This document shows positions 3,670-49,417 of a stretch of 64,000 bases of DNA, piece after piece; position 1 is the first letter of the stretch; every line of letters starts with the position of its first letter. The notes below the pieces were generated by a model. That model had not been told where the DNA came from, did not search any database, and saw nothing but the letters and a program-made list of their open reading frames with translations. Source of the DNA: Vigna angularis. Taxonomy: Eukaryota; Streptophyta; Magnoliopsida; Fabales; Fabaceae. The translations under genes were made by a program, and so were the position numbers. Where the stretch lies: assembly GCF_016808095.1 (NCBI RefSeq), contig NC_068974.1, positions 2,914,001 through 2,978,000 on the forward strand, written 5' to 3'.

Positions 3670-4209
3670 GAATGCTGAAGACAAACGTCATTGAGCCGAA
3701 CGTTCAAATGAAGAACGAACGTTCATTAAACAATATAACCGAACGATCACTAACACATAACATGACCGAACGTTCACTAACACAAAACATATCAAAAACC
3801 GAACGTTCACTCAGAATAATCATGACCGAACGCTATTTGCTGAACACCACAATGGGCCGAACGTCCAAAACTGAACGCTGAAGACATATATCATTGAGCC
3901 CGAACGTTCATCAAATCATTATGACCGAACGGTTGAAGATGAGGACGAACGTCCTAAAGAACCGAAATGCCGAACGGTTGAACAGTGCAAAGGACGAACA
4001 TCCTAAAGGACCGGGACGAACGTCTGTGATATTAATCAATAAAGAACGAACGTTTGCATGCAGAGGGAAGGAACCAATCGTCAAAAAGATTTGGAGCAGA
4101 AAAACGAACGCGTACGAAAGGCAGAGGATGAACAGTCGCATGAGGGCGAGGATGAACGGTCACATAAAGGCGAGGACGAACGTTCGCACTAGGCATAGGA
4201 CGAGCGCTC
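3670..4209. repeat. GAACGTTC-type short repeat array in the Ogre-type LTR
   Basis: The sequence is dense in CCGAACGTTC, GACGAACG and CGAACGGT words at irregular spacings of roughly 25-45 bp. GAACGTTC is its own reverse complement. The array continues after the nested element at 13146-13305. The homologous array in the other LTR is at 31614-32290. Forward reading frames here are by-products of the repeat. Confidence 0.85.
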
Positions 4210-4214
4210 ATGGT

Positions 4215-5432: not shown

Positions 5433-5438
5433 AGTTTT

Positions 5439-5456
5439 TGGCGCCGTTGTCGGGGA
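5439..5456 (+). other. Primer binding site, tRNA-Asp type
   Basis: TGGCGCCGTTGTCGGGGA lies 6 bp after the 5' LTR. It differs at one base from the TGGCGCCGTTGCCGGGGA used by other Athila-type elements in this window. Confidence 0.88.
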
Positions 5457-5615
5457 TTTGTTTTTGTTTTTGTTGATTGTTTGTTGTTTATCTGGTTTAG
5501 TTGATTTTTGCTATCTTTTGTTTAAGTTTTTATTGTGATCGTATTTGAATTCTTGTGCATATTTGTTATCATCTGTAGAAATTGTGTCTTTTTTTTTATT
5601 GTTTTCTTTTAGTTT

Positions 5616-8327
5616 GTGTTTTGTATGAGAAGCAGAGAACAGGTTGAAAATCTACTTTTTGATCCGGAAATTGAAAGAACTGCTCGAAGAAACAACAACA
5701 GAAGAAGGAGACAAAGTAGAGAATCTAGAGAAGCCTCTGCTATTTCTGAAGAAATTTTGAACTTTTCATCTAGTCAAGACAAAGAAGAAATGGAAGATAA
5801 TCGTACTGGAGAAGGTTATGGGCAAGGAAGACGTACTCTTGCAGATTATAATACTTTCTCAGGACCTCTGCACTTCAACAGTATTGCAAGACCAGTGGTG
5901 AATGCTGCTAACATGGAGATGAAGCCAGCTCTTATTCATCTGGTGCAGAACAATCAATTTCATGGATTATCCCACGAGAATCCATACACTCACTTGGCTA
6001 CTTTCATGGAGATTTGTAATACAGTGAGGATTCATCAGGTTCCAGATGAAGCAATTCGACTCAGCTTATTTCCATTCTCATTGGCTGGTAATGCAAAAAT
6101 GTGGCTGAATTCCTTTCCAGAGAATAGTCTGACAGTATGGGATGATGTGGTTGCTAAATTTTTGAATAAGTTTTTCCCTCAGTCCAAAGTCAATAAGGGA
6201 AAGCAGGAGATCTCTTCTTTCCAACAAGATGCTGATGAAACTCTAGGTCAAGCATGGGATAGATTCAAAGGCCTACTGAGAAAAACCCCTACTCATGGAT
6301 TTGATGAGCCTACAATGTTAAATTTGTTTCTTGGAGGGCTGAAATCCCAAACAAAGTTAATGTTAGATGCATCAGCTGGAGGTAGTATCAGATGGAAGAC
6401 GCTTGAAGAAGCACATGATCTGATTGAAAACATGGCTGCAAATGATAATGAAGTTCAGAGTGAAAGAGCTCAATTTCAACAAAAAAGTGTTCTTCAACTT
6501 CAATCTCAAGATGCTTTACTAGCTCAGAACAAGATTATGACTCAGCAACTTGAGACATTAATGAAGAAGTTATCTCAGCTACCTAAAGAACTGCAGAATG
6601 TTTCTCGAACTCAACATCAGATGGTTCAAAGTTGTGAATTATGCGGAGGAAATCATAATAGTGGTCAATGTGTAGTGCAAAGCATGTCTCATGAAGAAGT
6701 ACATTATATGGGAAATCAAGGTCTTCAGACAAACTATGATCAACGTCAAAGTTTTAATCAAGGATGGAGACCTCATCCGAGTATGGGACAAGTTGTTCCT
6801 TTCAACAGACCACCTCCACAGAACTTTCAGCAACAACCTACTCTGACAGACAGAACTTCAAAACTGGAAGAAACTCTTCAGCAGTTTATGCAGGTATCAA
6901 TTTCCAACCATAAAAGTACAGAAGCCTCACTTAGGAATTTGGAGATTCAGGTGGGTCAATTAGCTAAGAAGTTGGAAGAAAAACCAGTGAAGGACTTTGG
7001 GGCAACCACTGAAGTAAATCCAAAGGAAGACTGCAATGTTATTACTACAAGATCTGGAAGAATGCTAGAAGAAAAAGAGAATGAGAAAAGAGTGAGTGAA
7101 GAAAAAGATAAGATGAGTAAACAGGGAGATGAAGAAGAAGAGAAAGAGGAAAGAGAAATTGAAAAAGAGAGAGAGGGAGAGAAAAGGAAAGAACAGATGT
7201 ATGAGAAACCTCTTCCTTATCCAAAGGTTTTCTCTAGAAACGAGAAGGAAAAACAGTTCAGGAGTTTCATTGATATTTTCAAGAAGCTGGAAATCAAGAT
7301 GCCCTTCTCAGAAGCACTGAAACAAATACCTGCTTACTCAAAATTCATGAAAGATTTGCTCACAAAGAAGAGAAAGTATATTGAGGAAGAAACTATAGAA
7401 GTACAGGGCCAGTGCAGTGCTATCATTCAGAAGTTGCTTCCACCAAAGTTTAAAGATCCAGGCAGTTTTACAATTCCATGCACCATTGGTAAACTGACTA
7501 TTGGGAAAGCGTTAATTGATCTTGGAGCCAACATCAATCTTATGCCTCTGTCAATGTTTAAGAAGATTGGAGAATTAGAGTTGAAGCCCACACGCATGAC
7601 TCTACAATTGGCAGACAAATCAATCAAATATCCGCATGGAGTAGTAGAAGATGTGTTGGTAAAGGTAGACAAATTCTTATTTCCAATGGATTTTGTTGTC
7701 ATGGAGATGGAAGAGGATAAAGAAATTCCTTTGATTTTGGGAAGGCCATTCATGAAGACTGCTCGAGTATTGATTGATGTTGATGATGGAAAGCTTAAAT
7801 TGAGAGTTGAGAATGAAGAAGTAAATTTTAATGTTTTTGAAGCAATGTCTCACCCAAATGATGAAGATACATGCTTTCAAACAGATGAGCTTGAGGAAGT
7901 CTGCATGATGGCACAAAAGACGATGCACATATCATCACCTCTTGAAAGAACTCTTGTTGATGCTTGTGAATTTTTACTTGTAGATGAAGAGAAGTTAATT
8001 GATGAATGTATACAGAGTCTAGATGCTTTGAAGGAGATTCCATTTGATGAAAAAGAGATAAAAGAAAAGAAGCTGGACTTGAAGTTGCTACTTTCAAATT
8101 TGAAGTATGCTTTTCTAGACAAAGATGACAATAAACATGTGATCATCAGCAATGTTGTATCCACTCTAGAGGGAGAAAAGTTAACTGAATTCTTGAAAGT
8201 GGAGAAAGGAGCTGTAGGTTGGTCAAATTCTGATCTGAAAGGAATAAGTCCTTCTTCTTATTCCATGCATATAATATTCATGAAGGATGATTTCAAACTG
8301 TTGGCTCAACCACAGAGTGCTTCTTAG
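5616..8327 (+). CDS. Athila-type gag-protease polyprotein
   Basis: A 903-codon frame, open throughout, encodes the capsid precursor and an aspartic protease of an Athila-type Ty3/gypsy element. Translation may begin at the fourth codon (MRSREQ, 5625). The gag domain covers about residues 95-285, with SLFPFSLAGNAKMWLNS and FLNKFFPQSKV. A CX2CX3HX4C knuckle (CELCGGNHNSGQC) lies near residue 342. A Glu/Lys-rich linker at about 500-530 is followed by the protease near 620-740, with LIDLGANINLMP and a later LILGRPFM. The usual Athila protease wording is DLGAS; here Asn replaces Ser. The frame stops just where RT would begin (LAQPQ then a stop), joining directly to the 3' region, so RT, RNase H and integrase are missing as one clean deletion. 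Confidence 0.9.
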   Translation: MFCMRSREQVENLLFDPEIERTARRNNNRRRRQSRESREASAISEEILNFSSSQDKEEMEDNRTGEGYGQGRRTLADYNTFSGPLHFNSIARPVVNAANMEMKPALIHLVQNNQFHGLSHENPYTHLATFMEICNTVRIHQVPDEAIRLSLFPFSLAGNAKMWLNSFPENSLTVWDDVVAKFLNKFFPQSKVNKGKQEISSFQQDADETLGQAWDRFKGLLRKTPTHGFDEPTMLNLFLGGLKSQTKLMLDASAGGSIRWKTLEEAHDLIENMAANDNEVQSERAQFQQKSVLQLQSQDALLAQNKIMTQQLETLMKKLSQLPKELQNVSRTQHQMVQSCELCGGNHNSGQCVVQSMSHEEVHYMGNQGLQTNYDQRQSFNQGWRPHPSMGQVVPFNRPPPQNFQQQPTLTDRTSKLEETLQQFMQVSISNHKSTEASLRNLEIQVGQLAKKLEEKPVKDFGATTEVNPKEDCNVITTRSGRMLEEKENEKRVSEEKDKMSKQGDEEEEKEEREIEKEREGEKRKEQMYEKPLPYPKVFSRNEKEKQFRSFIDIFKKLEIKMPFSEALKQIPAYSKFMKDLLTKKRKYIEEETIEVQGQCSAIIQKLLPPKFKDPGSFTIPCTIGKLTIGKALIDLGANINLMPLSMFKKIGELELKPTRMTLQLADKSIKYPHGVVEDVLVKVDKFLFPMDFVVMEMEEDKEIPLILGRPFMKTARVLIDVDDGKLKLRVENEEVNFNVFEAMSHPNDEDTCFQTDELEEVCMMAQKTMHISSPLERTLVDACEFLLVDEEKLIDECIQSLDALKEIPFDEKEIKEKKLDLKLLLSNLKYAFLDKDDNKHVIISNVVSTLEGEKLTEFLKVEKGAVGWSNSDLKGISPSSYSMHIIFMKDDFKLLAQPQSAS

Positions 8328-9547
8328 TGTCAAGCTAAAGACGTTAAACAAGCGTTTACTGGGAGGCAACCCAGCTTTTCTAACTCTATCTATTTATGTT
8401 TTCAGTTATTTTGGTTGTGTGGATTGAATCTGAATCTGTTGGTTGTGTGGATTGATTTATGTTTCTGCAATGATTTGAATGTGAATTGTGTGTTTGAAGT
8501 TTGAATTTGAATTTGGAATTCTGTCCATGATAACTGGCATGATTGTGAGATTGTTATTGCAAAATCTGAGTTTTAGAACTTGTGTTATGATTATATATGA
8601 GTTGTTCTTGAATCTGATTGATTGTGACCCAGAAGTTGAATATCTGAGTGTACTGAGAGAGCTTTGAAAGCAAGTGAGAAGTTGTTATTGCTATGAATTC
8701 GATTTTTGCATAATTCTTATTGATACAGATGCATTCTGGTTTAGAAATGAGAAAGGCAGTTTTGTTTGATGAAATTAGCTACTTGGCCAGATGACTACCC
8801 ATATGTGAATATTCATCCTTTGTTATCCTGTTTGAGCCTTATATATATTTGTTGTGAGCCCTGAGCTTCTTACAGAAAAATCTACCTTATCCAACACTCT
8901 AGGAGAAGAGAACAAGAAACATATTTGTCAAGATGATAGGTAGAAATTAAGTTTGGGGGAAATCATAATCAGTTGAATCTTAAACTGATAAAAAAAAAGG
9001 GGGTTATTGTATCATGTAAATATGATAAAGTATCAAAGTTAGAGAAAAATTCAAAAAAAAAATGTGTTATGTGATGAATGAAGAGGTAGTTGATGAATAA
9101 AGTTTCAATGTTGTTATGTTCTTGTTCTCCTCTTCTTTAGTGTTGTTTTGTTTCCCTGTAAAACCATGTTTCTTCTAGCCAAGCCAAGTTATAACCTGAG
9201 AAAGTCCTTTTGATTTAAATCAGAATGTTTGATGTGTATATGAGATGACTTGCAAAAGTTGATGAAGTAGTTGATAACACTTTGAGCATGAATTTGAGTG
9301 TAAACACTTGCAGGTTGAGGTAAACACTGATTGAGCACATTTGTACTATTCTTTTTCTGGTTGTCTTATCATTTCGGATTCAAGAACTTGTTAATATAGA
9401 AGTTATAACATTTGATCTGAATATTTGGAGGTGTAGGTACAATCCTTACTTTTATGACAGAGATTATGTGATGGAATACTAACTGCTTTTGTTGGGTTCG
9501 TTTTTCTTTTGTTTTTGTGTATTTTCATGAGGACACGAAAATATATA
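8328..9547 (+). other. 3' non-coding region of the Athila-type element
   Basis: AT-rich sequence with no supported gene. It begins with a conserved motif GACGTTAAACAAGCG followed by a hairpin, CTGGG (8359-8363), loop AGGCAA, CCCAG (8370-8374). The same motif follows the lost coding region of the element at 25741-31613 (27873-27917). Confidence 0.7.
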
Positions 9548-9561
9548 AGTTTGGGGGAGTT
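9548..9561 (+). other. Polypurine tract
   Basis: AAGTTTGGGGGAGT lies directly before the 3' LTR, in the form usual for Athila-type elements. Confidence 0.85.
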
Positions 9562-9940
9562 TGATAGGTGTAAATTTTACTTGTTTTTGTTCCTTAAAAT
9601 GTTGTGTTTTTGAGTAAGTTTTAGTATTAATTCTCATGAAAAGTATATAATTGTTGATGTAAGTATAGTTTGTAATGTTTAAATGTGTGTTTTGATGCTT
9701 TTGTGTGTTTATTTTTGCAATAGAATAAGGATTGGATAATATCAAAGAGACCCTGTGTGCATCAGTGGCCCAGCCAGAGCGCACCAGAGGCCCAGCCAGA
9801 AGTGAACCAGTGGCCCAGCGACCAGGAACCAGTGGCCCAGCGAGCCAGTGGCCCAGTCAGAGCGCACCAGTGGCCCAGTGAGCAGGAACCAGTGGCCCAG
9901 CGAGTAGGAACCAGTGGCCCAGCGATCGACGCTCGCCCAG

Positions 9941-12294
9941 TGATACGACTGTCGTGGTCATACAAATTTGATACAAAAATTATGCAGTATATTTTCTAGG
10001 AAGTGACTCCTAGGTCGTCTCTCAAGGACCAATTTTGGTGGTTCAGTCTCAGATTTATCACGAAGTGGGGGGTTTGTGAAATTTTGGTTGGGGAAAATAA
10101 AATTAAAAAGTGCAACTTAAACACAACTGAATTTAAAATACTGAAATAAATTTCAAAGCAGTAAAATCAAACGGTAAAAAAAATGTTGAAAACGGTAAAA
10201 ATGGAACAGTAAATATTCAGAAACGGTAAAATTTAACGCAGAAAAAAACATCAGTGAAAATACATTGATAGAAAATAAACCGTAAAAATAACATTTGAAA
10301 ATAAAATGAACTAAAAATTACATTGACATAATTTAACGGTGCAGAAAAACATTAAACGGTAAAATAAAAGAGATAATAAAATTAAAAAAAAAACTTAGTG
10401 AAAGCATTTAAATTAAAATTCAAAACTTCAAATAAAATGAAAATCAAATGATCAAATGAACTACACGCTTCTGCAAAAATAAAATTCATACACTATTTGA
10501 AAATAGAATTGAAAGAACTTAGAACTGGAGAAGGAAACAGGGTCGTGAGTTTTTCTTACTTCCTACTCCTAATTCTAATCTAAAATCTGATTCCCCCTCT
10601 TGAATCTGAAGTACAGCTGCCTTTTATAGAAGCAGTAAGAGCCGTGATTCCTTGGTCCGTATAATGTAGACCTCCATATCATCATGCATTTCATTAATTA
10701 AAAGAAAAGAGGTTCATGACATGTCTCTTTGCTTTTTATGAAGTACACGGTCTTGGCTTCTCCATCTTCACGTGAATCTTGGCTTATTGAATAATTGATA
10801 TTTTGCTCCATTTGCCGTCCATGTGTGCAAGGCTCTACTGTGGACATGTGATACTCTTTCTTTATTCAATCTAGCTCAATGACCGTGTGTTTTTTTCTTG
10901 TGGCCAGCATTAGGCCGTGGGTGCTTTTCCAAATTACAGTCCACTTTTTTTCTTCATTCAATCGTGGGACCCCTTTCTCACTTCCTTGCTATCCAATACG
11001 TGCATACAACATTTCACTCATTCTTGGACACCATTCTTTGCTGCTGGACCGAGTTGGAGGAATGGTGAACGGTGAAGGCTGGTGCAGCTTGTTGGTGGAT
11101 GGAAATCCTTGCTTGAAAAATCAGTTACATCCTCTGCATGGGTGATCCACTTCTAAATGAAATGTCATGATCTTAGGCTAGCGGCTGGAACACCTCTTCC
11201 CCTTGTTTGTGCGTGCTGGATGAAGCTGCTTGTGTTTCTTCCCTTGGAAGGTGTGAATCCATTGATGTGTGCACGGCTGGACTTTTCTTTGTGACAGCAG
11301 CCGTGTGCTTGTGATGATCTCATGGGGCTGCACCTAATGTCTTTACTTGAAGCTCATCAACACAAAGAAAGATGATGCATTCCAATACTGCAGCTTCAAA
11401 AAAAATAAACCGTGAAGTGCTAGTGTGTTGGTGGTGCATTGTTACAAGCTATTTTATGCTTCTTGAAATTGAATAAATGAAGTACTTTCTTCCCATGAAA
11501 GTTGTGCTTATGTGAATGTTTCCAAATGCATGTCTTGCACCTCAAATGATCAATTCCAGCCACCACAAGTACTAAACATCAAGCATGCAAACATTTTAGA
11601 ACACTCAAAACAGTAATTACTGGACTGACATAGGAGAGTAAAACAAATACTGGGAACAGCACAAAACGAATTTTAACAAACGAAAAGCTATACGTGAAAA
11701 TAGACATCTAGACGAAACTATGAAAAAAAATTGCATGCAAAACGGATAAGAATTGAACTCAAACGAAGACACACAAGTTGACACAACATTCACGCAGCAC
11801 TGGTAATCGTTTACAGCACCCCTGTAAACGATTACCCGAGAGGAATTGCAAATTTGTACAGAAAGTCCAACACAGGTACTCAGTCAGGTGAACACAGGTC
11901 ACCATTGGCAAAAAAACTGACTTTTAGGCACTTCTGCCCCTGTCTGAGGCTTGTTCAGGTGTTCCAGTGGTGGGAGAGGGTGGATGGTGATGTGATGTGA
12001 GGCCAAGGAGTGTGGGGTGACCCTCGTTTACAGCACCCCTGTAAACGATTACCCGAGAGGAATTGGGAATTTGTACAGAAAGTCTAAATGTCCAAAAATA
12101 TTTTCCAAAATTTTTTCCTGCACTCAATAATGTAAATAATTCGTTTCAGATAATTCAAATTAATTAAAATAAGAATTTCTGATCGGATTAGGCTCAATTC
12201 AGTAAAATGGGAAAATACTGGACAATTAAGCACAATTCCCTGATTAATTCTAGCACAATAAACTAAATGAAGTGAATAAAATAATGATTCATCA
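9941..12294 (-). mobile_element. Solo LTR of the element-B family
   Basis: The sequence begins TGATACGACTGTCG and ends ATGATTCATCA on the plus strand and is flanked by CCCAG at 9936-9940 and 12295-12299. There is no internal region. The termini match the LTRs at 32548-36545, 52326-54721 and 60759-63047; the central 1.2 kb is divergent. A single LTR with intact target duplication is the normal product of recombination between two LTRs. Confidence 0.93.
11802..11836. repeat. Perfect 15-bp inverted repeat
   Basis: GGTAATCGTTTACAG and CTGTAAACGATTACC are separated by CACCC. The segment is repeated about 220 bp on, where the perfect stem is shorter (12024-12048). Both copies are followed by the same ACCCGAGAGGAATTG tail. 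Confidence 0.85.
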
Positions 12295-13145
12295 CCCAGC
12301 GACCGACGCTCGCCCAGCGAGCGTACGTTCGTCGCCCAGCGAAAAATCACTTAAGGTTCTTTCTTTAAAAACGCGATCCAGAGGCAGAAACCAGTCAGTT
12401 CTGGAGGGGAGAAGCTAGGGGAGACTCTGCAGCTCGCGTCCATGCTCGTTTTGGGTGCTCCGGAGTGGAATTTCAACACTTTCTACCATCCAATCCATGC
12501 TTTATCGCTTCTATGATGTATATGTGTAGCTAGAACTCCATTTCACTGGGGTTGAGAGTACATTTATGAAACTCTTTGTAATTTATATATTAATGCATGA
12601 TCTTGTATGAATTTTGTGTTCTATCTTCATTATTCATGCCTATGATGAGAATCTGAGCTATTTGAACGGTTAAATCATTGAGAAATGTATGAGACCGCGG
12701 ACCTAGGATAAAACTGCTAAAGGATTTCGAGTCCTAGACATAGGAGGAAATTCTTAGTCATTTGTGACATTGTGATTAAGGCAAATCTGATAACTGAATT
12801 ATCTAAGAGATTAGGATTTAGTTTGAATGATTCTGAACGGTCATCTGAGAGATCAGGACTGCATGCGCCTAGGATGTTGATGCTTAATTTTGAGGAATTG
12901 TGTTAGTAGAAAAATTACTTGAGTGATGAACTTGAAAATCAACCCCAGTGAACTTTAATTCATCTATTTTTACCACTTTAATTTCATCTGTATGCAAATC
13001 TTACTTGTGTTGTAAATTTAATCGCTAAATTAGTAAACTTTAATCAATCTGTGAATCAAAACAAATCTCTTGGGAAACGATATTCGGACTTACTGATTTA
13101 TTACTTGTACGATTCGGTACACTTGCCGAGGTCTCAACAATGGTG

Positions 13146-13305
13146 CAGGACGAACGCTTAACAACATATGACCGAACGTTCAACAAACATCAAGACCGAA
13201 CGTTCAATAACATATAACATAAGACCGAACGTTCAACGCATCAAGAACGAACGTTCAACACATCAAGGGCGAACGTTCAACACATCAAGGCCGAACGTTC
13301 GCGAG
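13146..13305. repeat. Second part of the GAACGTTC array
   Basis: Seven or so CCGAACGTTC or GAACGTTC units with ATCAAG or ACACATCAAG spacers. This is continuous with 3670-4209 before the nested insertion; the matching sequence in the other LTR is at about 32120-32290. Confidence 0.85.
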
Positions 13306-13457
13306 ACTGATTGGCTGTTTTTTTTTATTTTTTCATTTTTATTTATATATTATTATTTTTTATCTTTTTTTTAATTTTTATTATTTGTTTTTTTTACTTT
13401 TTTTTTTGTATTTGACACTCATCTATTGGTCAATCCGGACGAAATTGGGTGTTGACA

Positions 13458-13475
13458 GCTGCCCCTCTTTACTTA
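13458..13475 (-). other. Polypurine tract of element A
   Basis: On the minus strand AGTAAAGAGGGGCAGC runs directly into the LTR start TGTCAACACC. It marks the 3' end of the internal region and so fixes the orientation. Confidence 0.85.
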
Positions 13476-18619: not shown

Positions 18620-18700
18620 CACCAGACGGTTGCAGCGACCGAAACTGTAGCCACAGTGGGTTTGCTCACTATAAAACGGGTATCCCTTCGGCGTCTGAGC
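18620..18700 (+). promoter_or_regulatory. Promoter of the WOX-type gene in element A
   Basis: TATAAAA lies at 18670-18676. Upstream, GACCGAAACTG followed by CCACAGTGGG matches GACCGGAACTG and CTACAGTGGA before the TATA box of the second copy. A pyrimidine-rich leader follows, ending at a splice donor CCAG|GTAAGTC (18855/18856). Confidence 0.65.
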
Positions 18701-19172
18701 GGGATTTTCCCGATCTCGCTCTCTCTCTATCCTTCTCTTTCTCCCTCTTCTCTCTCTTCCTTGAGCGTCTGGATTTCTGCGAGGAGCCTCTGCCCCGTGT
18801 GCTTTCGGAGGCGTCCCAGTGCTGCGACGAGCTTCTGTGTGCCTTGCGCTTCCAGGTAAGTCCTCCGATCTCTTAATCTCACTTTCTTTCCTTAAATTTT
18901 TCGTTCTTCCTTTTTCCTTTCCTCCTCCCCTTTCAGCTTTCTGTTCTTCTTTTCTTTTACGCTTTCGCTTTCTGTTTTTGCTTTCCTTCCCCTCTCCCAT
19001 TTATGTTTTTCTTTTCTGCTTTCCTTTCCTGCAAGCTCTTTCCTCTTTATGCTTTATCTGCTTTTATTTCAATCTCGCCTTTCTCTGCATTTCTTTCTGA
19101 GTCTTCTTTCTTTCTTTTTTTTTTAATTTTCAAAACTTAAAACACTTAAAAACACAACTGTCCTAAATTTAA

Positions 19173-19260
19173 GGGGTATATAGGCTGGAAACCAGACGTT
19201 TATCTCCCTTCGTTTGAAGGTATGGCAGAGACAATCGGGTAGAACAACGCCACGTACCCC
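19173..19260 (+). other. Candidate structured RNA in the 5'-UTR intron, copy 1
   Basis: The outer stem GGGGTA (19173-19178) pairs with TACCCC (19255-19260). Inside are CTGG-AAA-CCAG (19185-19195), CCTTC-GTTT-GAAGG (19207-19220) and a possible third arm closed by GGC (19224-19226) and GCC (19249-19251). The copy at 38652-38739 has the same length and differs at three positions: two unpaired and one reducing the weak third arm by a pair. The strand is assumed from the host gene; the fold is possible on either strand. Confidence 0.6.
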
Positions 19261-19339
19261 ATAAAAACAGAAAACTTAAAAAGAGAAAATATTTGAATGA
19301 ACCGGACATGGACCATATGGACAAGGACAAAAGGACATA

Positions 19340-19381
19340 GATCCGTTTAGGACCCTTTTTGCAAGGACCGTGAAACAGATC
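19340..19381 (+). other. Candidate conserved hairpin in the 5'-UTR intron, copy 1
   Basis: GATC and GTTT (19340-19348) pair with AAAC and GATC (19373-19381) with one mismatch. An inner stem CCTT (19354-19357) pairs with AAGG (19363-19366) around TTTGC. The copy at 38820-38860 keeps all stem bases and has a loop one base shorter. Confidence 0.55.
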
Positions 19382-19552
19382 CGAGACCAGACACTGAAAT
19401 AATAAAGACTGACCGGACAAAATAAACTTAAAAGGAAACAAAAACACATAAAGAAAACACTGAACAAAGAAACTAAAATTTTTGTTATGCTTTTGTTTTG
19501 TTTTTGTTCTTTTTACTTTTTTTTTATGTTTTAGAAAACTTAGAGAGTAAGG

Positions 19553-20093
19553 ATGAGCGAGATGGAAATAGAGAGGTACACCAGTCCGCGATGGCATCCT
19601 ACTGACGATCACATCAAGATGATGACCAACATCTATAATTACGGGGTCACACATCCCAGCAGAGCCCAAGTCGTCGAGATTACGTCTCGACTAAGGGCTT
19701 TCGGAGATGCCAGTGAATATAACGTGCACTGCTGGTTCAACAACCATGGCAATCGGGTCAGGCGCTGGCAAGCGGAGATAGACCCCACTGGCACTCACTT
19801 TTCACAACTGTCGTTATACATGTATGGTAAGAAACCTGATCACCTCTATTTTTTTTGAATTTTACTCTTCCGTCTCTATTATTGACACAAAGTTTTTTTT
19901 TTTGAAAGAATACGACTGGGTAATTATGAGGGCGCCGAGGCTACTGGATTTGTTCCCCGTTCCGATCATCATCGACGACGACAGGGACGAACGACAAATC
20001 CATCCACCCATGCTTCTCGCATTCCGAACCAGAGCTCCCTCGACGGAGCTCTCCCTTAGACCACCACAACCAGCCCGAGAATATTTTCATTGA
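19553..20093 (+). CDS. WUSCHEL-type homeodomain protein carried by element A
   Basis: A predicted DNA-binding transcription factor of 152 residues. Coding exons are 19553-19826 and 19909-20093, spliced at G|GTAAG and AAAG|A in phase 1. An upstream non-coding exon ends at 18855 and the 5'-UTR intron ends at 19534. Residues 13-72 form a WOX homeodomain (RWHPTDDHIK, ITSRLRAFG, NVHCWFNNHGNRVRR) with Trp61, Phe62, Asn64 and Arg68 at the usual helix-3 sites. The usual Gln of WFQN is Asn63 and the usual Lys and Ala are Gly66 and Asn67. LLDLFPVP (103-110) resembles the WUS box and TELSLR (137-142) an EAR motif. The gene runs opposite to the retrotransposon. WOX proteins are usually longer. Nuclear repressor activity is inference. 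Confidence 0.82.
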
Positions 20094-20160
20094 TTTTTTT
20101 TTTGTATTTTAATATTATTTTTTTTTTGTGTTTTTTTTGTATTTTGGACTGTAAGCTTAA

Positions 20161-20176
20161 CGATCATCAATGATCG
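20161..20176 (+). other. Conserved hairpin in the 3' region of the WOX gene, copy 1
   Basis: CGATCA-TCAA-TGATCG lies 68 bp after the stop codon. The second gene has CGATCA-GAAA-TGATCG (39751-39766) at a similar place, so the stem is kept while the loop differs. The surrounding sequence is otherwise poly-T and poorly conserved. Confidence 0.5.
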
Positions 20177-22908: not shown

Positions 22909-22926
22909 TCCCCAGTGGAGTCGCCA
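22909..22926 (-). other. Primer binding site of element A, tRNA-Arg type
   Basis: On the minus strand TGGCGACTCCACTGGGGA starts 2 bp after the LTR end. This is the form reported for Ogre elements, primed by tRNA-Arg. Confidence 0.88.
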
Positions 22927-25740
22927 TCTGTCGCAACCGGAATCGCGACGGGATGACGATCCGAAAAAATAACGAAACAAAGGGTTTTGAAAAAGAGATT
23001 GGAGTCGCCACCATAGTTTATTCTGGAAAACTACGGAAAAACCATAAAATGATAAGGCATGGTCTATTAGAACCAGATTCTTGGTTCGGGAGTCGGTTAC
23101 ATGTAGGGAAGGTATTAGCACCCTACAACGCCTGCCCTAAGGCAGTACCTTTAACTAAATACGCAAATATGATGTGGTTTTCAAAATGTTTAACTTTCCC
23201 TTAAAATAAAACTCTAAAGAAACAAACAATATTTTTTTAGCTTTTTGAGCCCGACAAGGATTGACCTTGCTCCTACGTATTCCCATTCAGAATGAGAAAT
23301 CAGGGTTCCGTAGTTCGTTTAGAAAACTGCTTGAGAAGTTTGTTTGGAAATTTGTTTGAAAATTTGTTTTGAAATGATTTGGAATAAATTTGGAATTTTG
23401 GGAAAATGAACCTGACAAGGACTAGCCTTGCTCCTGTGTATCTCCACTTTTGATGGAGAATCAAGGATCACGTAGTTCTGGCAGGGGATATTGTTTGTAG
23501 TTTTGAAAAAGGCATGTTTTTTAGTTTTTGATGATTTTACATGTTTTTGGTATTTTTATTATAATATTTATATGTTTTCCGTAATGAGTACTAGGTTGAT
23601 GCGTACGATCGCACGAGCACTCACACAGCTTGTTCCTTTTATTGTTTTGCGTAATGAGTACTAGGTTGATGCGTACGATCGCACGAGCACTCACATGGCT
23701 TTTTCCTCTTATTGTTTTGCGTAATGAGTACTAGGCTGATGCGTATGATCGCACGAGCACTCACGCAGATTTTTATTTATTTTATATTTGGGCAATAAGT
23801 ACTAGGCTGATGCATACGATCGCACGAGTACTCATACCGATATTTATTACATTAAATGTTTTTTAAAGTTTTATATATTTTTTATTATTTTTTTTTTACA
23901 ATTTTTATAATTTTTATATAAAACGAAACAAACAAATCCACGGAAACAAAGAGAGTTACATGCAATAAAAAGAAAAATAATAAAATAAAAATAAGGCAAA
24001 ACAAAAGCATAGAAAAATAAAACAAGAGAACAAGCCCAACAGGAATAGGGGTACAAAGATGAGAACCAGGTATGCGAAGTGGAATTGAGACTCTTTTGAC
24101 TGGGCCAAAAGGCTCTTCTTCTCCAACTTTGTATCTGCGGGTGTAAGGATGAAATTTGGGGGTGCCATTAAATATTTGCTCGTCAGGCCCAGCTCTCCTT
24201 TTGCAGAAACGGAGGGGCTTAAACCCAAATGGAAGGGGGTGTGCGGGTGAGAACCGGGGGGGGGGTGCGGAAGGAGAAATTGTATTTTTATTTTTATTTG
24301 TAAATATATTATATGTATTTTTTTGTTAAAGTGAAAAATGGATCAAAAGCAAAGGCCCAAGCCTTTTCGTTCCTTGGATCCGGAAACCCTTAGGGGTTCT
24401 TCAATTTTCGTTACCATTTCACTCAACTGAAACCCCAGGATCTCCTTCTGTCTTCCACCTGGCCTCCTCGTCGCCGTTGCCACCGGCGACTGCATCACCG
24501 CTTCTACGAGCAAGCTTCCGCGCCACCACCTCTTCCGCGGCGTCGCTCCCTTTCTCTTCTTTCGTCTCTCTTCGCGCGCGGCCCAGATTTACTGTCGGTA
24601 CACGCGACCAAACCGGAAACCGCCTCGGCTCCACCACCAAACGACCTAGGATGCCACCACTGCCACCGCCAATCGTAACCCTTTCCTATCGGACATCGAC
24701 ATTGAAGTTCTCGAGAGGGAGATGAGGATGGTTCGGCCAAACTGGAAAAGGATTTAAAGGTTCACAGTGACTTAGTCATTTTTGGTTTTTGTGAATTCCT
24801 TCTTGCAGGTTTGGATAAACAAAAATCGATGGCGGGGAGGTATGGTTGATGGGTTGGAGTTGGGTGATGGAATGGGGGTGTTGGTGTTGATGGTGATGAT
24901 ATGGGCTGTGTGTAAGGATGAAGGTGATCAGAGAGGGTTGAACAGATGAAGAAGGGGTGGTAGCAGAGAGGTTAAGATCGAATGATGAGAGTGAGGAATT
25001 GCTTATGGTGGCTGATGATGGTTCGAAGAGGAAGATGAGGGTGATAGGTGTTAGCTGTGAAGTGTATGGACGAAGATGATGGGTGTTTATGGAGGCTGAG
25101 GACGATGATGATGTTGGAGGTGAATATGGATGATGAGCAAAGAAGCCGTGAGGTAAGGTGAAGATGGACGGGATGTGTTCATCACGGGTATTCCCGGGGT
25201 CTTGGAGATGATCACCGGTGAGAGGATCCCCCCCAGGGAGCCAGTGCCCCCTTCTCCTTTAAATTATGCAGAAGATGAAACTGTCGGTAGCTTTGGATTG
25301 GTGGATTGTCTGTCGGTAGCTCTCATTGGAGGATTAGGAGTGTCGGTAGCTGTGATTGGAGGGCTGTAGAAATTATTGGGTAGAGATAATGGGAGGGTTG
25401 GTGAAGTGGGAAACATTAGTGGAAGTTTGTTAAGGTGGTGTCGGAGCACTCATTGTGGGAGGTTGATGATGGTGAGAATCATTACTGGGCCCTGGAGCGA
25501 CGACGGGTGATCGGGACGAGCGGTAGGGGGGAAATTATGGACGAGCAGTAGAAAGGGGAGGAGCATGGACGAGCGGTAAATGGGGTGATTAGGACGAGCG
25601 GTAGAAGAACGGGAGAGAGGGACGAGCGGTAGAAAAGGCAGGAGTGATATGGACGAACGCCTCAACACATTGCCGAACGCTGGACAAAAATAAGCACCAT
25701 TACTACGAATGCTGAAGACAAACGTCATTGAGCCGAACGT

Positions 25741-27301
25741 TGATAATGCTAAATTATACCATATTTTAAGCATCATTTTAGTGGCAAAATCAACTCCTTT
25801 CTTACTTATAACTTGCTTAATCCTCTTGTTTTGCCTTGTTTTCTAAATAATTGTGTTTTTGGCTACTTTGATGTACTTTCAACAATAATCCCTTATTTTG
25901 TAGCTAAAAATGAGCTTGGAAGACTCTCCAACAATGTCTAAGGCTGAACCAACCACTAGAAGCGAGCAGATCTGCAGAAAAAGTGAAAATGATGTAGTAC
26001 TGAAAAGTCAGGCCCAAGCCCCCCCTGGCTGAGGGGCGCCCAAGCGCGACTGCACCAGGGCCAGTTTCTACACAGAAAAGTGACCAGGTGCCAGTTTTGT
26101 GTGCTGGTCAGGCCCAAGCCCCCCCTGGCTAAGGGGCGCCCAAGCGCGACTGCACCAGGGCCAGTTTCTGCACAGAAAAGTGACCAGGTGCCAGTTTTGT
26201 GTGCTGGTCGCGCCCGGGCGTGAAAAAGGGGCGCCCGGGCGTGAGAAATGGGGCGCCCAGGCGTGACTTTTTCCGAGAGGCTCGCGCCCGGGCGCGACTT
26301 TTGTTGATGTGTCAGATCCAGCTTATTTAACCCAGAAACACGAAGGGGTTAGGGCCTTTGGTCATTTGGAGGCACGATTTCACTGAGAGGAGAGCTTGGA
26401 GGACTGCTAGGGTTCGTGGGAACACTCCCTTCTTCCTCTTGGGTTCTTCATCTTCTTCCATGGTCATCTTGTAAGCTTTAGGGCTCTCTATGGAAATGGA
26501 GAGCCAAACCCATCTTGTTGGGATTAGTTGTAGCCTTTGAATTCTTGTGTAATTGTTGAATGATTTGATTATATATATGCCTTTTCTATCAATTGCTAGT
26601 ATTCTTGTTTCCAATCTTAAAGCTTGCATGTAATGGGAACGTTCATGGCTTGATTTTAGGGTTTTATGGATTATGGGAACGTAAGATGAAATCTTGAACT
26701 GAAATAAGAGTCCTTGTGGGTCATTGATTCTAGGAATGGAAGATGATTCACATGTTGTCTTAGATCCCAGCTCTTTAATGCGGGTTTTGCTTGTTAGATT
26801 GCCAAGGAATTGGGGTTTGATAAGGAAAACCTAGGCTCTTTCACCTAAGGAATTAGGGCTAGAGTGTTTTAGTGGATTGACTTTAGTAAATTGATAGAGA
26901 GGAGATAAAATTGGTCATACACAAGAGTGCATTGGTGAAAACTAACCTTAGCAATGTCATTTCATACCATTTCTTGTCTTTTCCATTTCCAAGTGCCTTC
27001 AATACCAAAGTCCAACCTTGTAATTATGTATGAATTTACATTTCTGCACTTGTTCTGTATATTGATGTTATGTTATTGAGTCTATACGAGTTGTTAATCG
27101 CACAATTCTCTAGTATTACGAGTCTCTTGGGAAAACGATACCCGGTCTTACCGGTTTATTACTTGAACGATTCGGTGCACTTGTCGAAATCGAGCCCAAC
27201 AAGTATTTTTTGAGCTAACAAGTTTTTAGCGCTGTTGCCAAGGATTTGGGGATTGAACCCGAGTCCTAGCAACGGCTAACAAGTTAAATTGGGCCTCATC
27301 A
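25741..27301 (+). repeat. 5' LTR of the non-coding Athila-type element
   Basis: At 1561 bp it is 129 bp longer than its partner, mostly because a segment of about 100 bp containing AGGGGCGCCCAAGCGCGAC is present twice (26010-26205). It also contains GCGCCCGGGCG palindromes (26212-26300) and, near its right end, a relic primer site (27227-27244). Confidence 0.9.
27227..27244 (+). other. Relic primer binding site inside the LTR
   Basis: TAGCGCTGTTGCCAAGGA follows CTAACAAGTTTT just as the true site follows its LTR end. It differs from the true site at 27308-27325 at four of 18 positions. The partner LTR has the same relic at 31539-31556. Confidence 0.7.
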
Positions 27302-27307
27302 AGTTTT

Positions 27308-27325
27308 TGGCGCCGTTGCCGGGGA
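27308..27325 (+). other. Primer binding site, tRNA-Asp type
   Basis: TGGCGCCGTTGCCGGGGA lies 6 bp after the LTR end at 27301. Confidence 0.9.
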
Positions 27326-30164
27326 CTCGTGTCAATACTAGACTTTTGTGAGGTTTCTAACTTATGTAGACTTGATTTTGTATATAGAACTAACTCTTTT
27401 GTTGTAAATAGATTTTTAGTTTTACTTGGGCTAATTTGTGGCTTTAGCCTAGTTGTGTCTAAGTGTATGCAGGGGATGTTCATACATGGAGGACTACAGC
27501 CTCAAAAGCATCATGAAGACCCTGAGATTGAAGGAATTATAGGACACAAGGAGACAACTATGTTGAGCACTACAAGCTGCCCAAAATTCTCCCTTCATTG
27601 AAGATGCTCCAAGTGCTAAGTGAAAGATGAAGAAAGGGAGAAGGAAAAGAGAAACACTAGTCATCACCACCCTTTGATGAGAGACAAGGAACTCAAGCCT
27701 AGCAAGCCAAAGTTGATCAAGAGGATTGAGTATTTGAAGATGTCAAGGTAGTGGAAGGGCTAAATAGAAGAATTCAAGCTTTGAGAGTTGATTTGGTGGC
27801 TAGAATGTGATTCAAGAGGAGTTGGTGGAAGGAGCACACCAACATCAAAATCTGCACTTCATTGAGTAATCCGTCAAGCTAATGACGTTAAACAAGCGCT
27901 TTTGGGAGGCAACCCAATTTTCTTACCCTTTTTACTAGTGTTTGTGTGATTTTTGTGTTATTTGCATTAGTAACTTTTGTTTTGCATGTTTGTGTAGTTT
28001 TGCATTGTTGTGATTTTTGAGTTTTGATGTTGTTTTTGTGGTTTGTATAAGTGTATTAGGTTAGTTTTAGCTTGTTTGGTGTGTGAGTGCATTGAATGAA
28101 GGTCTAGAACCAAAAATCACATGGTGAGTGGCCAATTTCGCAGAAATCTGCATTATGCAGAAATCTGACATGGCGCCCAAGCGCCCCCTGCTGAGGGGCG
28201 CCCGGGCGCGAGCTGCACGAGGGCCATCCTGCATCAACCTGACCGAGTGGCGCCCAAGCGCTCCCTGCTGAGGGGCGCCCGAGCGCGACTTGCACCAGTG
28301 GCGCCCAACACCAAAAATTCTGGTTCTGCACTTTTGTTTTTTCTTGATTTATGATGAGTTTCCCATTCTTTTGCACTCTTTAACACACTCCTTTTGATGT
28401 GTTTTTATACCTTTTTGTGTTGTGGTACCTTTGGGAAGCTTAATTCTAAGACTTCCCTCTTTGTTCTTGTACTTTTGTCTTTGTTTGTTTTGGATTTCTC
28501 TGTCTTGTTTCTTTGCTTTCTTGTGCATTTTTCTTTTAGTATGTTTTATGGATTCTTCTCTCCAGTTGTTGAGTATGGGATACTAATTTTGCTTTGAGCT
28601 TTCTTGTTACAGGATAAGATCTTCCTTAAAACTTTACAGGATTTAAAACCACCATTGGCCAACCTTTGAGCCAGGCTAGAGTAGAGCAACCATATGACTT
28701 GAAGATTTTGAAGCTCGTGTAGCATGGCCTGGGGGCCAGGCCCCTACTGATGGGGGAGGTGGAGCAGTTGTGGAGTATAAGCTACTGTGGGAGGAAGATG
28801 TTGCAGATGAAAGTGAAGCTAGTGTCTTACACTGCTGGAGCTGCAAAGAGTCCATTTTAATTCGGTTTTTCAGTTTTAATTTCCAGTTCTTATTTGCTTT
28901 CAGTTTTTTTTTTGTTTTTGGATTTCTTTTTGACTTGCCTAGTGGATAGTTCTTGTGCAATTGGTCTGGTGATTTGAGTGAATCATTAGTTATGCTTGAA
29001 TTGAATACAAATCTGTTGTGCTTGCTCTTTATCCATGAGAATTGTTTTGAAAATCTAATTGGGATTATGTGGTTGAGCCTGTTGAACAGAGATTGTGGTT
29101 GCTTGTATATGTTTAGATAGATGCTTGGTTTTAATTGTGATCAATATTCTTGGCATGATGTTTATCAAATTTTGGAACCTTGAGTAAACCTGTGAGATGT
29201 TGTGCCTCAGAGTTTATTGCTGAATGTTATTACTTTGGAATCACAGTTGATTTTGCCTAAGTTTCTCTATTTGAACTGTTACTTGCATGTTACAAATGAT
29301 CAAGGCCATCTTGTTCTTCCACCTCTTCTACATTTTGAGCCTAAAAGCCAATGTATAACCTTTGAACCTTAAAGAAAACTTTCTCATTCCCGAAACCTTA
29401 AGCCTATTGAAAAATCATTAACCTCCTTACCTTGAGTTGAGATGATCATATATATTAGAGTGAGGAGAATGGTCTAAGTTTGGGGGAGTTCTTCTTGTCA
29501 AAAGGGGAGCATTGAGAAAAATAATAAGTTGAGTTAAAAAGAAAGAAAAAGAAGAAAGAAGAAGAAGAAAAACAAAAACATGAATTCAATGAAAAAGAGT
29601 TGGGAAATAAGTTGAGAGTGGTTTATTCAATTTTGGAGAAAAAGAGGTACTATGTTATATCATGAATTAAATTGTTTGGTCTCTTATCTCAAGGTGCTTT
29701 GTTGTCCAGAAAAACCAAATTTTCTTCTTAGCCCAACCACAATACAAGCTTCAAAAAGTCCTTGTGATGTTACTTGCTTGTTAATGTGTTTGAAATTGTT
29801 GAAACAAAAGGCAAAGTTGATTTATGTAACATTGTGATAGTTGAGAGTTAGACACACATCCTTATACACCATTGTGCTTGAGTGAAACACTTTCCTTGGT
29901 GAGGATTGGTTCCATGCCCTCATTGAAAACAACTTGCCATGTTTGTTGATCTATCATTTGCATCTATCTTGTGATTTTTAATTTGTGAGCACCATGATTG
30001 AAGTTTAGCTTGCTAAGACTATATTGTCTCTTGAATGTGATTTATAAGTTGAGCAAGCACGATTGATTTTGTTTATTTGATTGAAACTATGCTTGAGTTG
30101 CTAGACCATTGTGATTGAATTGTTTGCTAGGAGAAGTACTTTTGCTTGAGGACAAGCAAAGTTG
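27326..30164 (+). other. Internal region of the non-coding Athila-type element
   Basis: No gene is supported. It holds a conserved hairpin TTGGG-AGGCAA-CCCAA (27902-27917), GC-rich GGGGCGCCCGGGCGCGA words (28170-28310) that also occur in the LTR, and AT-rich sequence with a purine-rich stretch at 29530-29580. Confidence 0.75.
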
Positions 30165-30181
30165 TAAGTTTGGGGGTAATT
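30165..30181 (+). other. Polypurine tract
   Basis: AAGTTTGGGGGTAATT lies directly before the 3' LTR of the non-coding Athila-type element. Confidence 0.85.
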
Positions 30182-31613
30182 TGATAATGCTAAATTATAC
30201 CATATTTTAAGCATCATTTTAGTGGCAAAATCAACTCCTTTCTTACTTATAACTTGCTTAATCCTCTTGTTTTGCCTTGTTTTCTAAATAATTGTGTTTT
30301 TGGCTACTTTGATGTACTTTCATCAATAATCCCTTATTTTGTAGCTAAAAATGAGCTTGGAAGACTCTCCAACAATGTCTAAGGCTGAACCAACCACTAG
30401 AAGCGAGCAGATCTGCAGAAAAAGTGAAAATGATGCAGTGCTGAAAAGTCAGGCCCAAGCCCCCCCTAGCTGAGGGGCGCCCAAGCGCGACTGCACCAGG
30501 GCCAGTTTCTGCACAGAAAAGTGACCAGGTGCCACTTTTTTCACGCCCGGGCGTGACTTTTTCCGAGAGGCTCGCGCCCGGGCGCGACTGAGAGGGCGCC
30601 CGGGCGCGACTTTTGCTGATGTGTCAGATCCAGCTTATTTAACCCAGAAACACGAAGGGGTTAGGGTCTTTGGTCATTTGGAGGCACGATTTCACTGAGA
30701 GGAGAGCTTGGAGGACTGCTAGGGTTCGTGGGAACACTCCCTTCTTCCTCTTGGGTTCTTCATCTTCTTCCATGGTCATCTTGTAAGCTTTAGGGCTCTC
30801 CATGGAAATGGAGAGCCAAACCCATCTTGTTGGGATTAGTTGTAGCCTTTGAATTCTTGTGTAATTGTTGAATGATTTGATTATATATATGCCTTTTCTA
30901 TCAATTGCTAGTATTCTTGTTTCCAATCTTAAAGCTTGCATGTAATGGGAACGTTCATGGCTTGATTTTGGGGTTTTATGGATTATGGGAACGTAAGATG
31001 AAATCTTGAACTGAAATAAGAGTCCTTGTGGGTCATTGATTCTAGGAATGGAAGATGATTCACATGTTGTCTTAGATCCCAGCTCTTTAATGCGGGTTTT
31101 GCTTGTTAGATTGCCAAGGAATTGGGGTTTGATAAGGAAAACCTAGGCTCTTTCACCTAAGGAATTAGGGCTAGAGTGTTTTAGTGGATTGACTTTAGTA
31201 AATTGATAGAGAGGAGATAAAATTGGTCATACACAAGAGTGCATTGGTGAAAACTAACCTTAGCAATGTCATTTCATACCATTTCTTGTCTTTTCCATTT
31301 CCAAGTGCCTTCAATACCAAAGTCCAACCTTGTAATTATGTATGAATTTACATTTCTGCACTTGTTCTCTATATTGATGTTATGTTATTGAGTCTATATG
31401 AGTTGTTAATCGCACAATTCTCTAGTATTACGAGTCTCTTGGGAAAACGATACCCGGTCTTACCGGTTTATTACTTGAACGATTCGGTGCACTTGCCGAA
31501 ATCGAGCCTAACAAGTATTTTTTGAGCTAACAAGTTTTTAGCGCTGTTGCCAAGGATTTGGGGATTGAACCCGAGTCCTAGCAACGGCTAACAAGTTAAA
31601 TTGGGCCTCATCA
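30182..31613 (+). repeat. 3' LTR of the non-coding Athila-type element
   Basis: 1432 bp, almost identical to 25741-27301 apart from lacking one copy of the duplicated GC-rich segment and small nearby changes. It has the same relic primer site at 31539-31556. Confidence 0.92.
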
Positions 31614-32448
31614 AACGTTCAAATGAAGAACGAACGTTCATTAAACAATATGACCGAACGATCACTAACACATAACATGACCGAACGTTCACTAACACAA
31701 AACATATAAAAACCGAACGTTCACTAAGAATAATCATGACCGAACGCTATTTGCTGAACACCACAATGGGCCGAACGTCCAAAACTGAACGCTGAAGACA
31801 TATATCATTGAGCCCGAACGTTCATCAAATCATTATGACCGAACGGTTGAAGATGAGGACGAACGTCCTAAAGAACCGAAATGCCGAACGGTTGAACAGT
31901 GCAAAGGACGAACGTCCTAAAGGACCGGGACGAACGTCTGTGATATTAATCAATAAAGAACGAACGTTTGCATGCAGAGGGAAGGAACCGATCGTCAAAA
32001 AGATTTGGAGCAGAGAAACGAACGCGTACGAAAGGCAGAGGACGAACAGTCGCATGAGGGCGAGGACGAACGGTCACATAAAGGCGAGGACGAACATTCG
32101 CACTAGGCATAGGACAAGCGCTCATGGTGCAGGACGAACGCTTAACAACATATGACCGAACGTTCAACAAACATCAAGACCGAACGTTCGATAACATATA
32201 ACATAAGACCGAACGTTCAACGCATCAAGAACGAACGTTCAACACATCAAGGGCGAACGTTCAACACATCAAGGCCGAACGTTCGCGAGACTGATTGGCT
32301 GTTTTTTTTTTATTTTTTCATTTTTATTTATATATTATTATTTTTTATCTTTTTTTTTAATTTTTATTATTTGTTTTTTTTACTTTTTTTTTTGTATTTG
32401 ACACTCATCTATTGGTCAATCCGGACGAAATTGGGTGTTGACAACCAC

Positions 32449-36232: not shown

Positions 36233-36545
36233 GTTCCATATGTCCATCATAAAATTTTCAATTTCGAATAAGCTTCTTTACGTATGGAAAGTGAAAATCT
36301 CATTTTAGTTTAGCATGTAATTGATGGGAAATTTCTCTTTGAGTCCCAAATTATTATCCAACAATTTTCCTGCATTCAATAATGTAAATAATTAGTCTCA
36401 GACAATTCAAATTAATTAAAATAAGAATTTCTGATCAAATTAAGCACAATCAGTACAAATGGGAAAATATTGGACAATTAAGCACATTTCCCGATTAAAT
36501 CTAGTACAATAAACTAAGTGAAGTGGAGAAAATAATGATTCATCA

Positions 36546-44661: not shown

Positions 44662-44666
44662 TTTAT

Positions 44667-49391: not shown

Positions 49392-49417
49392 AATTTTCGA
49401 GGACGAAAATTTTTGTA

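Follow-up and report, generated by a model that had tools for sequence, protein, structure and literature searches.

The 64,000-nucleotide stretch of Vigna angularis DNA analysed here (contig NC_068974.1, positions 2,914,001 to 2,978,000; hereafter the window) contains two copies of a WUSCHEL (WUS)-type homeobox gene, each carried in antisense by a long terminal repeat (LTR) retrotransposon. With three LTR element types carrying this antisense cargo and 477 probe matches in the genome, the finding is larger than the original prediction of a WUS-type gene inside an Ogre-type element. Our preferred reading, to which we give a probability of roughly 60%, is that a WOX gene of the WUS clade, together with its introns and TATA promoter, has been passed as cargo among at least three LTR lineages and raises the spread of its carriers.

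The antisense gene and its first carrier

The first window copy spans positions 18670-20093 of the plus strand. Its exons and introns were predicted from the sequence, and the spliced frame encodes 152 residues. The features are as follows.

18670..18676, plus strand: TATA box (TATAAAA), read from the sequence
18700..18855, plus strand: predicted non-coding first exon, start approximate; donor CAG/GTAAGT at 18855/18856
18856..19534, plus strand: predicted intron of 679 nt in the 5' untranslated region (5'UTR), from the donor CAG/GTAAGT to an acceptor at 19534
19553..19826, plus strand: coding exon with the WUS-type homeodomain, residues 1-91; ATG at 19553
19827..19908, plus strand: predicted phase-1 coding intron of 82 nt after the homeodomain, splice sites from the sequence
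19909..20093, plus strand: second coding exon, with WUS-box-like LLDLFPVP and EAR-like STELSLR; the stop ends at 20093

LLDLFPVP resembles a WUS box and STELSLR an EAR motif. The two-intron frame proposed at first was recovered in this form, one predicted intron lying in the 5'UTR and one, of phase 1, in the coding part.

The product is a WOX-type homeodomain protein by its sequence and fold matches in PDB. A profile search of the 152-residue product, suggested with the original prediction, gave the Pfam homeodomain PF00046 at E 8.5e-5 and 22.7 bits, slightly under the curated cut-off of 22.9; the second window copy (E 2.7e-6, 27.5 bits) and the further copies L045 and L046 (E 3.7e-7 and 8.1e-8) were above it. 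The top matches in a PDB sequence search were WUSCHEL (6ry3, E 3.6e-11) and STENOFOLIA (6wig, E 4.4e-11), and the family profile A2 matched STENOFOLIA at 2.1e-20 and WUSCHEL at 1.3e-19. In the AlphaFold model of a close relative (P0001) the mean predicted local distance difference test score (pLDDT) lay between 70 and 89 for the blocks that make up residues 11-70, with low values outside them, and the best PDB fold matches of this model were the STENOFOLIA and WUS homeodomains bound to DNA. The recognition-helix residues W61, F62, and N64 were invariant across the 35 rows of alignment A1. Pfam, PDB sequence, profile, and the fold of the P0001 model thus agree with the homeodomain class originally proposed. 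A chance homeodomain match was ruled out by the PDB sequence, profile, and fold matches and by the 477 genome places, against 0 for the control probe.

The first carrier, element 1 (Ogre-type by its primer site), is delimited by the following features.

895..13457, minus strand: 3' LTR in element sense, with TG...CA ends and a nested insertion at about 4214-13140
13458..13470, minus strand: purine-rich tract AAAGAGGGGCAGC, adjoining the 3' LTR
22910..22926, minus strand: primer binding site TGGCGACTCCACTGGGG, adjoining the right LTR
22929..32443, minus strand: 5' LTR in element sense, pairing with 895-13457, with a nested insertion at about 25740-31614
890-894 and 32444-32448: target duplication ACCAC on both sides of the element (895-32443)

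Antisense carriage between LTRs, together with the primer site, the purine tract, and the 5-bp duplication ACCAC, was therefore found as first described. Since the primer site adjoins the right LTR on the minus strand, element 1 runs from right to left and the plus-strand gene is antisense to it. The LTRs measure about 3.6 kb net of insertions, both are broken by younger insertions, and the pair is mismatched at 65 of 3627 aligned bases (K 0.018). We take the primer site TGGCGACTCCACTGGGG to be tRNA-Arg-like, and Ogre elements are tied to tRNA-Arg primer sites. In its passage on primers, PMC6317226 counts tRNA-Arg among those of non-chromovirus elements. No gag or pol domain was found in the 13 scanned frames out of 28 internal frames of at least 70 residues, the rest of which overlap the gene, are short, or are repeated; the name Ogre-type consequently refers to primer site and size, and element 1 looks Ogre-like in its ends only. 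From the carrier assignment of the original prediction, the primer site, the LTR size, and the duplication stood, whereas gag and pol were not found and the gene was not confined to such elements. Tandem repeats were also seen in the 3' part of element 1, at 13613-14439 (55-base unit) and 16587-17041 (steps of about 26 bases). A snoR71 match at 6199-6301 on the minus strand (40.9 bits, cut-off 40) lies within a gag-type frame at 5616-8327 and is probably due to chance or derived from a repeat.

Three carrier types and the segment they share

The second window copy was picked by position, not by score. A blastn comparison of the window with itself showed it as a match at 38585-39583, and it lies in element 2 (Athila-type by its primer site), into which our feature list also places a nested element.

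39073..39346, plus strand: homeodomain exon of the second copy, same structure as the first copy
39442..39623, plus strand: exon of the second copy with WUS-box-like and EAR-like motifs; 151 residues overall
32548..36545, minus strand: 3' LTR of element 2 in element sense, interrupted at about 34635-36233
52326..54721, minus strand: 5' LTR of element 2 in element sense, pairing with 32548-36545
52304..52320, minus strand: primer binding site TGGCGCCGTTGCCGGGG of element 2, different from that of element 1
32548-54721: element 2 as a whole, with target duplication CCCAT
40417..41916, minus strand: partial gag frame of element 2, 500 residues; weak Retrotrans_gag match (E 0.0013, 19.3 bits, cut-off 24.1)
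42029..52065, plus strand: nested chromovirus-like element, gag-pol frame at 44817-48653

The element 2 primer site TGGCGCCGTTGCCGGGG is presumably tRNA-Asp-like. Its LTR pair is mismatched at 1 of 2397 aligned bases, and the insertion is therefore recent. The gag frame lies on the minus strand and the gene on the plus strand, 3' of gag. In 10 more element 2 frames no match to pol or to further gag was found, and the Athila assignment is based on the primer site and the partial gag below the cut-off. The nested element at 42029-52065, in which no chromodomain was found, is probably a chromovirus, judging from its ends and pol.

The genome searched comprised 448 Mb in 33 contigs. A probe of 26 bases from the homeodomain exon, with up to 3 mismatches allowed, matched 477 places (237 forward, 240 reverse), and the reversed control probe matched 0. 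For the subfamily of the window copies, called S1, this is a better estimate of copy number than the list given by the genome protein search, in which 150 of 1006 candidates were scored (299 exon matches) and which is biased towards copies whose two exons share an open frame; the second window copy is absent from it. Four homeodomain matches about 8.8 kb apart were noticed at G000:C6:890951-917599, possibly a tandem array of carriers.

Thirty-five distinct copies were examined, of which 34 were score-ranked or the given copy and 1 was found by position in the window. All 35 fit one of three LTR-element contexts, which we denote E1 (the type of element 1; 5 copies), E2 (the type of element 2; 28 copies), and E3 (a third, chromovirus-like type; 2 copies). 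Judged by their flanks, the 30 shorter best-scoring loci (L009-L038) comprised 4 of E1 and 26 of E2. Within 9.8 kb around eight copies, L039 and L043 belonged to element 1 and L040, L041, L042, and L044 to element 2, these last four with the element 2 primer site in place; L039-L042 are longer versions of L010, L013, L015, and L019.

The third carrier type is represented by L045 (2402-9801) and L046 (2534-9801), where direct repeats at a distance of 6.2 kb flank the gene. These repeats show 0 mismatches in 1140 bases in L045 and 3 in 1087 over the part covered in L046 (100% and 99.7% identity). Like element 2, both are recent insertions. Their primer site TGGTATCAGAGC corresponds to the initiator Met tRNA, and the LTR end, the leader, and the purine-tract region resemble those of the gag-pol-bearing nested element at 42029-52065, so that with a tRNA-Met primer site and chromovirus-type ends this carrier is classed as chromovirus-like. 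No gag-pol with a chromodomain was found in 7 of the 9 internal frames of at least 100 residues (3 of 3 in L045, 4 of 6 in L046), and only the homeodomain exceeded its cut-off; among the frames scanned, the antisense homeobox gene would be the only recognised gene of these carriers. A gag or pol hidden in the scanned frames of element 1, of element 2 beyond its gag frame, or of L045 and L046 was likewise considered and rejected, with no match.

The orientation of the gene relative to the flank was constant in 30 of 30 loci, although in some of them as much as a fifth of the flank alignment lies on the opposite side of the gene. Placement was antisense in all eight copies with readable carrier ends (both window copies, L040-L042, L044, L045, and L046); in element 1 and in the chromovirus-like type this was established from the side of the primer site. 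With 477 dispersed places and every examined copy in an LTR-element context, the gene travels with its elements as was first supposed, and its copies are not found mainly at one locus outside such elements. The supposed restriction to Ogre-type elements did not hold, given the second copy in an Athila-type element and the third carrier of chromovirus-like type. Because copies occur in three carrier types, we regard the gene as cargo of non-autonomous LTR families and not as a single capture. A single-locus host gene was ruled out by the 477 places and by the separate ordinary host WOX loci.

Alignment of the carriers showed high identity from about -450, counted from the ATG, until some 100 bases beyond the stop (about +650), weaker over the promoter and first exon; outside these limits the identity between carriers was near the baseline of about 40%. 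It is the gene, not the flanks, that the carriers have in common. In 29 of 35 copies the position aligned with the TATA box reads TATAAA or TATATA. The first-intron donor was GGTAAG in 33 of the 35 and AGTAAG in both chromovirus-like copies, and the coding intron had donor GGTAAG and acceptor AG in 39 of 39 rows (35 distinct copies).

The copies studied are under constraint at the protein level. Between the two window copies (NG86), the rates of nonsynonymous (dN) and synonymous (dS) substitution were 0.043 and 0.60 for codons 1-91 and 0.108 and 0.686 for the whole gene, that is, dN/dS of 0.07 and 0.16 overall. For the homeodomain exon of the 35 copies, mean dN/dS between types was 0.06 (E1-E2), 0.08 (E2-E3), and 0.14 (E1-E3), and within types 0.19 (E1) and 0.06 (E2). 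For exon 2, with the 20 ungapped copies of the 35, it was 0.13-0.17 between types, and 0.06 (E1) and 0.20 (E2) within them. Excluded from these means were pairs whose dS was undefined or very large, namely 2 of the 378 E2-E2 pairs for exon 1 and 3 of the 78 for exon 2. The intact appearance of the gene in these copies suggests that it is used by the elements. Many score-chosen S1 copies had a coding intron of 3n length, several of them with an open frame through it; since copies of this kind are favoured by the search list, we give no weight to this possible excess, which may be an artefact.

A further shared feature is a conserved non-coding block in the 5'UTR intron.

19165..19262, no strand assigned: conserved non-coding block of about 97 bases; 38649-38745 in the second copy

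The block was present in 26 of 35 S1 copies at 93-98% identity and missing in 9. It was also found in two more distant subfamilies described below, S2 (L072 and L075, 96-97%) and S3 (L067 and L074, 82-84%), with no match in the S3 loci L066, L069, and L073, nor in the 3.2 kb examined of host loci L047-L057. It is conserved in these S1, S2, and S3 loci though their homeodomain proteins differ widely, and it is not essential, being absent from 9 of 35 S1 copies and 3 of 5 S3 loci. No Rfam match was obtained up to E 1, and a known RNA family was rejected for it. The z scores of its element-sense fold were -3.64 (element 1), -1.77 (element 2), -2.44 (L045), -1.57 (L072), and -0.80 (L067), with 3 base pairs changed on both sides; we claim no RNA structure for the block.

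Relatives and probable origin of the gene

More distant repeated relatives, S2 (L072, L075, and part of P0059-P0067) and S3 (L066, L067, L069, L073, and L074), are also present in the genome. On reading the sequence, an integrase-like frame was seen beside the homeodomain exon in L075 (S2) and a reverse transcriptase (RT)/RNase-H-like one in L074 (S3). The ordinary host WOX genes are separate loci, including eleven of the WUS clade (L047-L057). In a tree of 40 homeodomains over 64 columns, with these eleven and eight other host WOX included, the S1, S2, and S3 homeodomains formed one group (96/96) apart from the host WOX.

The original prediction placed the gene in the WUS clade. This placement is supported by architecture, namely the WUS-box-like motif and a predicted intron that directly follows the homeodomain. 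The tree of homeodomains leaves room for several attachments among the WOX clades and does not put the family within the WUS clade. The WUS box of the WUS (modern) clade is TLxLFP. A scan for it found the motif in 10 of the 11 WUS-clade loci of the host and in 0 of 9 host loci of other WOX types. Among the 7 S2 and S3 loci it was positive in 5, as TLDLFP or TLNLFP in L066, L067, and L073, LDLYP in L069, and LLDLFP in L072 (none in L074 and L075); the S1 copies have LLDLFP or LLHLFP, with the first residue changed with respect to TLxLFP. Considering introns, the coding intron of the element-borne genes is of phase 1, and by sequence pattern no donor was seen within 200 nt after the homeodomain in any of the 9 other host WOX loci. 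By the same pattern, S3 loci L066, L069, and L073 have a donor at 64 nt, phase 1, and host loci L057 and L056 have theirs at 64 and 70. By pairwise identity, S1 and S3 are nearest to the WUS clade, with a tie between that clade and WOX13 for the second window copy. The C-terminal end is VELTLRLPS in S3, compared with LELRLSF in L056 and LDLRLSF in L057. We take these two host genes to be WOX5-like, and our best guess for the donor is a WOX5-like gene.

Three observations speak against the clade placement. The best tree joins the element-borne group to the WOX9/11 types (86/79) and not within the WUS clade, with approximately unbiased (AU) test p values of 0.16 for attachment to WUS and 0.178 for attachment to WOX13. 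S2 homeodomains are nearest to WOX9/11 types, at 51-53% identity. The candidate donors after the homeodomain are of phase 1 in L047-L049, L056, and L057, of phase 0 in L051-L053, and unclear in L050, L054, and L055; such mixed phases mean that intron phase is not a mark of the whole WUS clade. The intron argument is weakened accordingly, and the WUS-box argument is strengthened by the 0 of 9 in the other host WOX.

Concerning distribution, the nearest protein, 95% identical, was named a 'hypothetical protein' of Vigna angularis, and the 57 cluster representatives listed were all from V. angularis. No relative outside this species was found among the 57 and 68 cluster representatives listed, by a word-based search that can miss distant or unannotated ones and in clusters whose members behind a representative are not named. 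The viral contig collection, from which records near the genome of the window may be excluded, contained no relatives.

Possible role of the cargo and comparison with known systems

Under the reading that we prefer, the gene would be expressed from its own promoter thanks to its antisense carriage, and the same carriage would let the introns survive the RNA stage, since on the strand of the genomic RNA they do not act as introns; the coding intron present in all copies read agrees with this idea. Passage between carrier lineages would probably occur by recombination. The carriers examined look non-autonomous, with no pol in the scanned frames and part of gag kept in element 2, and they would move with the enzymes of relatives; a gag-pol-bearing relative of the third carrier is present in the window. 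The product would be a nuclear repressor-type factor of 151-152 residues, whose homeodomain would bind WUS-like sites and whose WUS-box-like and EAR-like motifs would recruit a TOPLESS-type corepressor, these being the functions of such domains. The protein would most likely raise the spread of its own carriers by influencing how elements or host genes are transcribed in cells of the meristem or germ line.

Apart from the points of clade placement, several observations count against this account. In-frame stops occur in 10 rows listed by the protein search. The copies were chosen by score or similarity, by which intact ones are favoured, and the dN/dS values are optimistic because such a choice lowers dN. 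The single chromovirus-like pair, L045-L046, gave dN/dS of 0.46 in exon 1 and 0.64 in exon 2, with few changes. The 13 scanned frames of element 1 showed neither RT nor the additional RNase H that marks the Tat clade. Moreover, a trans-acting factor should benefit gene-free copies as well. For such a gene to be selected at the level of the element, and kept in three carrier types, something must tie it to its own carriers. Candidates are action on meristem or germ-line cells, action in the same cell, selection at the meristem level, or LTR self-regulation.

This last candidate can also stand by itself: the protein might bind the LTRs or leaders of its carriers and control their transcription or silencing, with no role in host stem cells. 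The repressor-type motifs fit, and PMC11963269 discusses regulatory proteins of antisense origin in connection with retroviruses and with the Retand TRP28 open reading frames (ORFs). Against it, the chromovirus-like LTR has only a 57-base blastn match to the window, which falls in the nested element, so that a common LTR target is not evident, and we hold this explanation to be possible, if somewhat unlikely. A more specific form of our own reading, namely that a stem-cell regulator is kept since it holds the expressing cells competent for the meristem or germ line, whereby new insertions are inherited, seems doubtful; if true, plants would here have an equivalent of an oncogene-like cargo, with heritability as the property under selection.

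It could also be supposed that the gene is a passenger, captured by chance and copied with the elements without any role, the apparent constraint resulting from the choice of intact copies. The selection by score, the ten rows with stops, and the L045-L046 ratios would be in agreement with this. The second window copy, however, was found by position, and its low dN/dS relative to the first was obtained at dS of about 0.6-0.7; moreover, both exons, the splice sites, and mostly the TATA box are kept in three carrier types, and carriers with no detected pol have kept the gene, which makes a mere passenger quite unlikely. That these are WOX copies serving the host in repeat-rich DNA, or that one copy was taken over by it, is very improbable, despite their annotation in Vigna angularis as hypothetical or WUSCHEL-related homeobox 2/4 genes, in view of the 477 places, the shared element sequence of the flanks with fixed orientation in 30 of 30 loci, the LTR pairs with 0-3 mismatches around three copies, and the ordinary host WOX genes at the separate loci L047-L057.

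In plant LTR elements, antisense genes occur commonly and lack an explanation, and here their role is directly testable because the product is recognisable, of WUS type, and with well-studied host relatives. The same cargo in three carrier types points to gene exchange between retrotransposon families within one genome. Finally, it is a warning that reported WOX expansions in Vigna genomes may be transposon cargo. WUSCHEL-related homeobox genes are significantly expanded in Vigna reflexo-pilosa according to PMC10357499, which names no transposons in the passage concerned, and this expansion may be cargo of the present kind.

We found no description of a WOX gene as cargo of LTR elements in a limited literature search, which does not prove novelty. 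Words beginning with homeo, WUS, or WOX were absent from the main text of PMC11963269 and likewise from a review of additional ORFs. Surveys that start from RT or that count extra frames only from 250 codons, as does the survey PMC6317226, would miss this gene because it has 152 codons, is spliced, and lies in elements without RT.

The closest known system is that of the Retand/Tat antisense ORFs (TRP28). According to PMC11963269, they too run opposite to gag-pol, in the region that separates the coding part from the 3' LTR, are frequently accompanied by tandem repeats, and have a putative DNA-binding product; the original statement that Tat-lineage elements can carry extra antisense ORFs matches this description. 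Those ORFs mostly have TRP28, SMC-like, or further domains, and their elements were identified by way of RT, whereas here the product is a WOX homeodomain protein, from a gene with introns, in three carrier types with no detected pol. LTR elements with captured domains (AlkB in Phalaenopsis, LOG/YgdH, B3, PMD) resemble the present case in having an extra domain fixed in Ty3/gypsy, B3 also being a transcription-factor domain; the screen concerned started from RT in 121 angiosperm genomes, and its section 12 names no homeodomain (PMC9289625). By comparison with these, here one cargo gene is found in several lineages.

With WUSCHEL/WOX5-type genes the cargo shares the homeodomain, a predicted intron soon after it, and the WUS-box-like and C-terminal EAR-like motifs, but its homeodomain is 41-55% identical to the nearest host WUS-clade one (six rows compared), and the gene is of 151-152 residues, mobile, and of high copy number. 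The carriers have LTRs, a primer site, a purine tract, and no detected pol (part of gag in element 2), as in the elements that we would call LARD or TR-GAG-like, from which they differ by a conserved gene of cellular type that has a promoter of its own. HBZ belongs to the bZIP proteins and not to the homeodomain proteins. Like the HBZ-type retroviral antisense proteins mentioned in PMC11963269, the gene described here gives a regulatory protein from the antisense strand, but in this case it is a homeodomain protein with a TATA promoter inside the internal region of the element.

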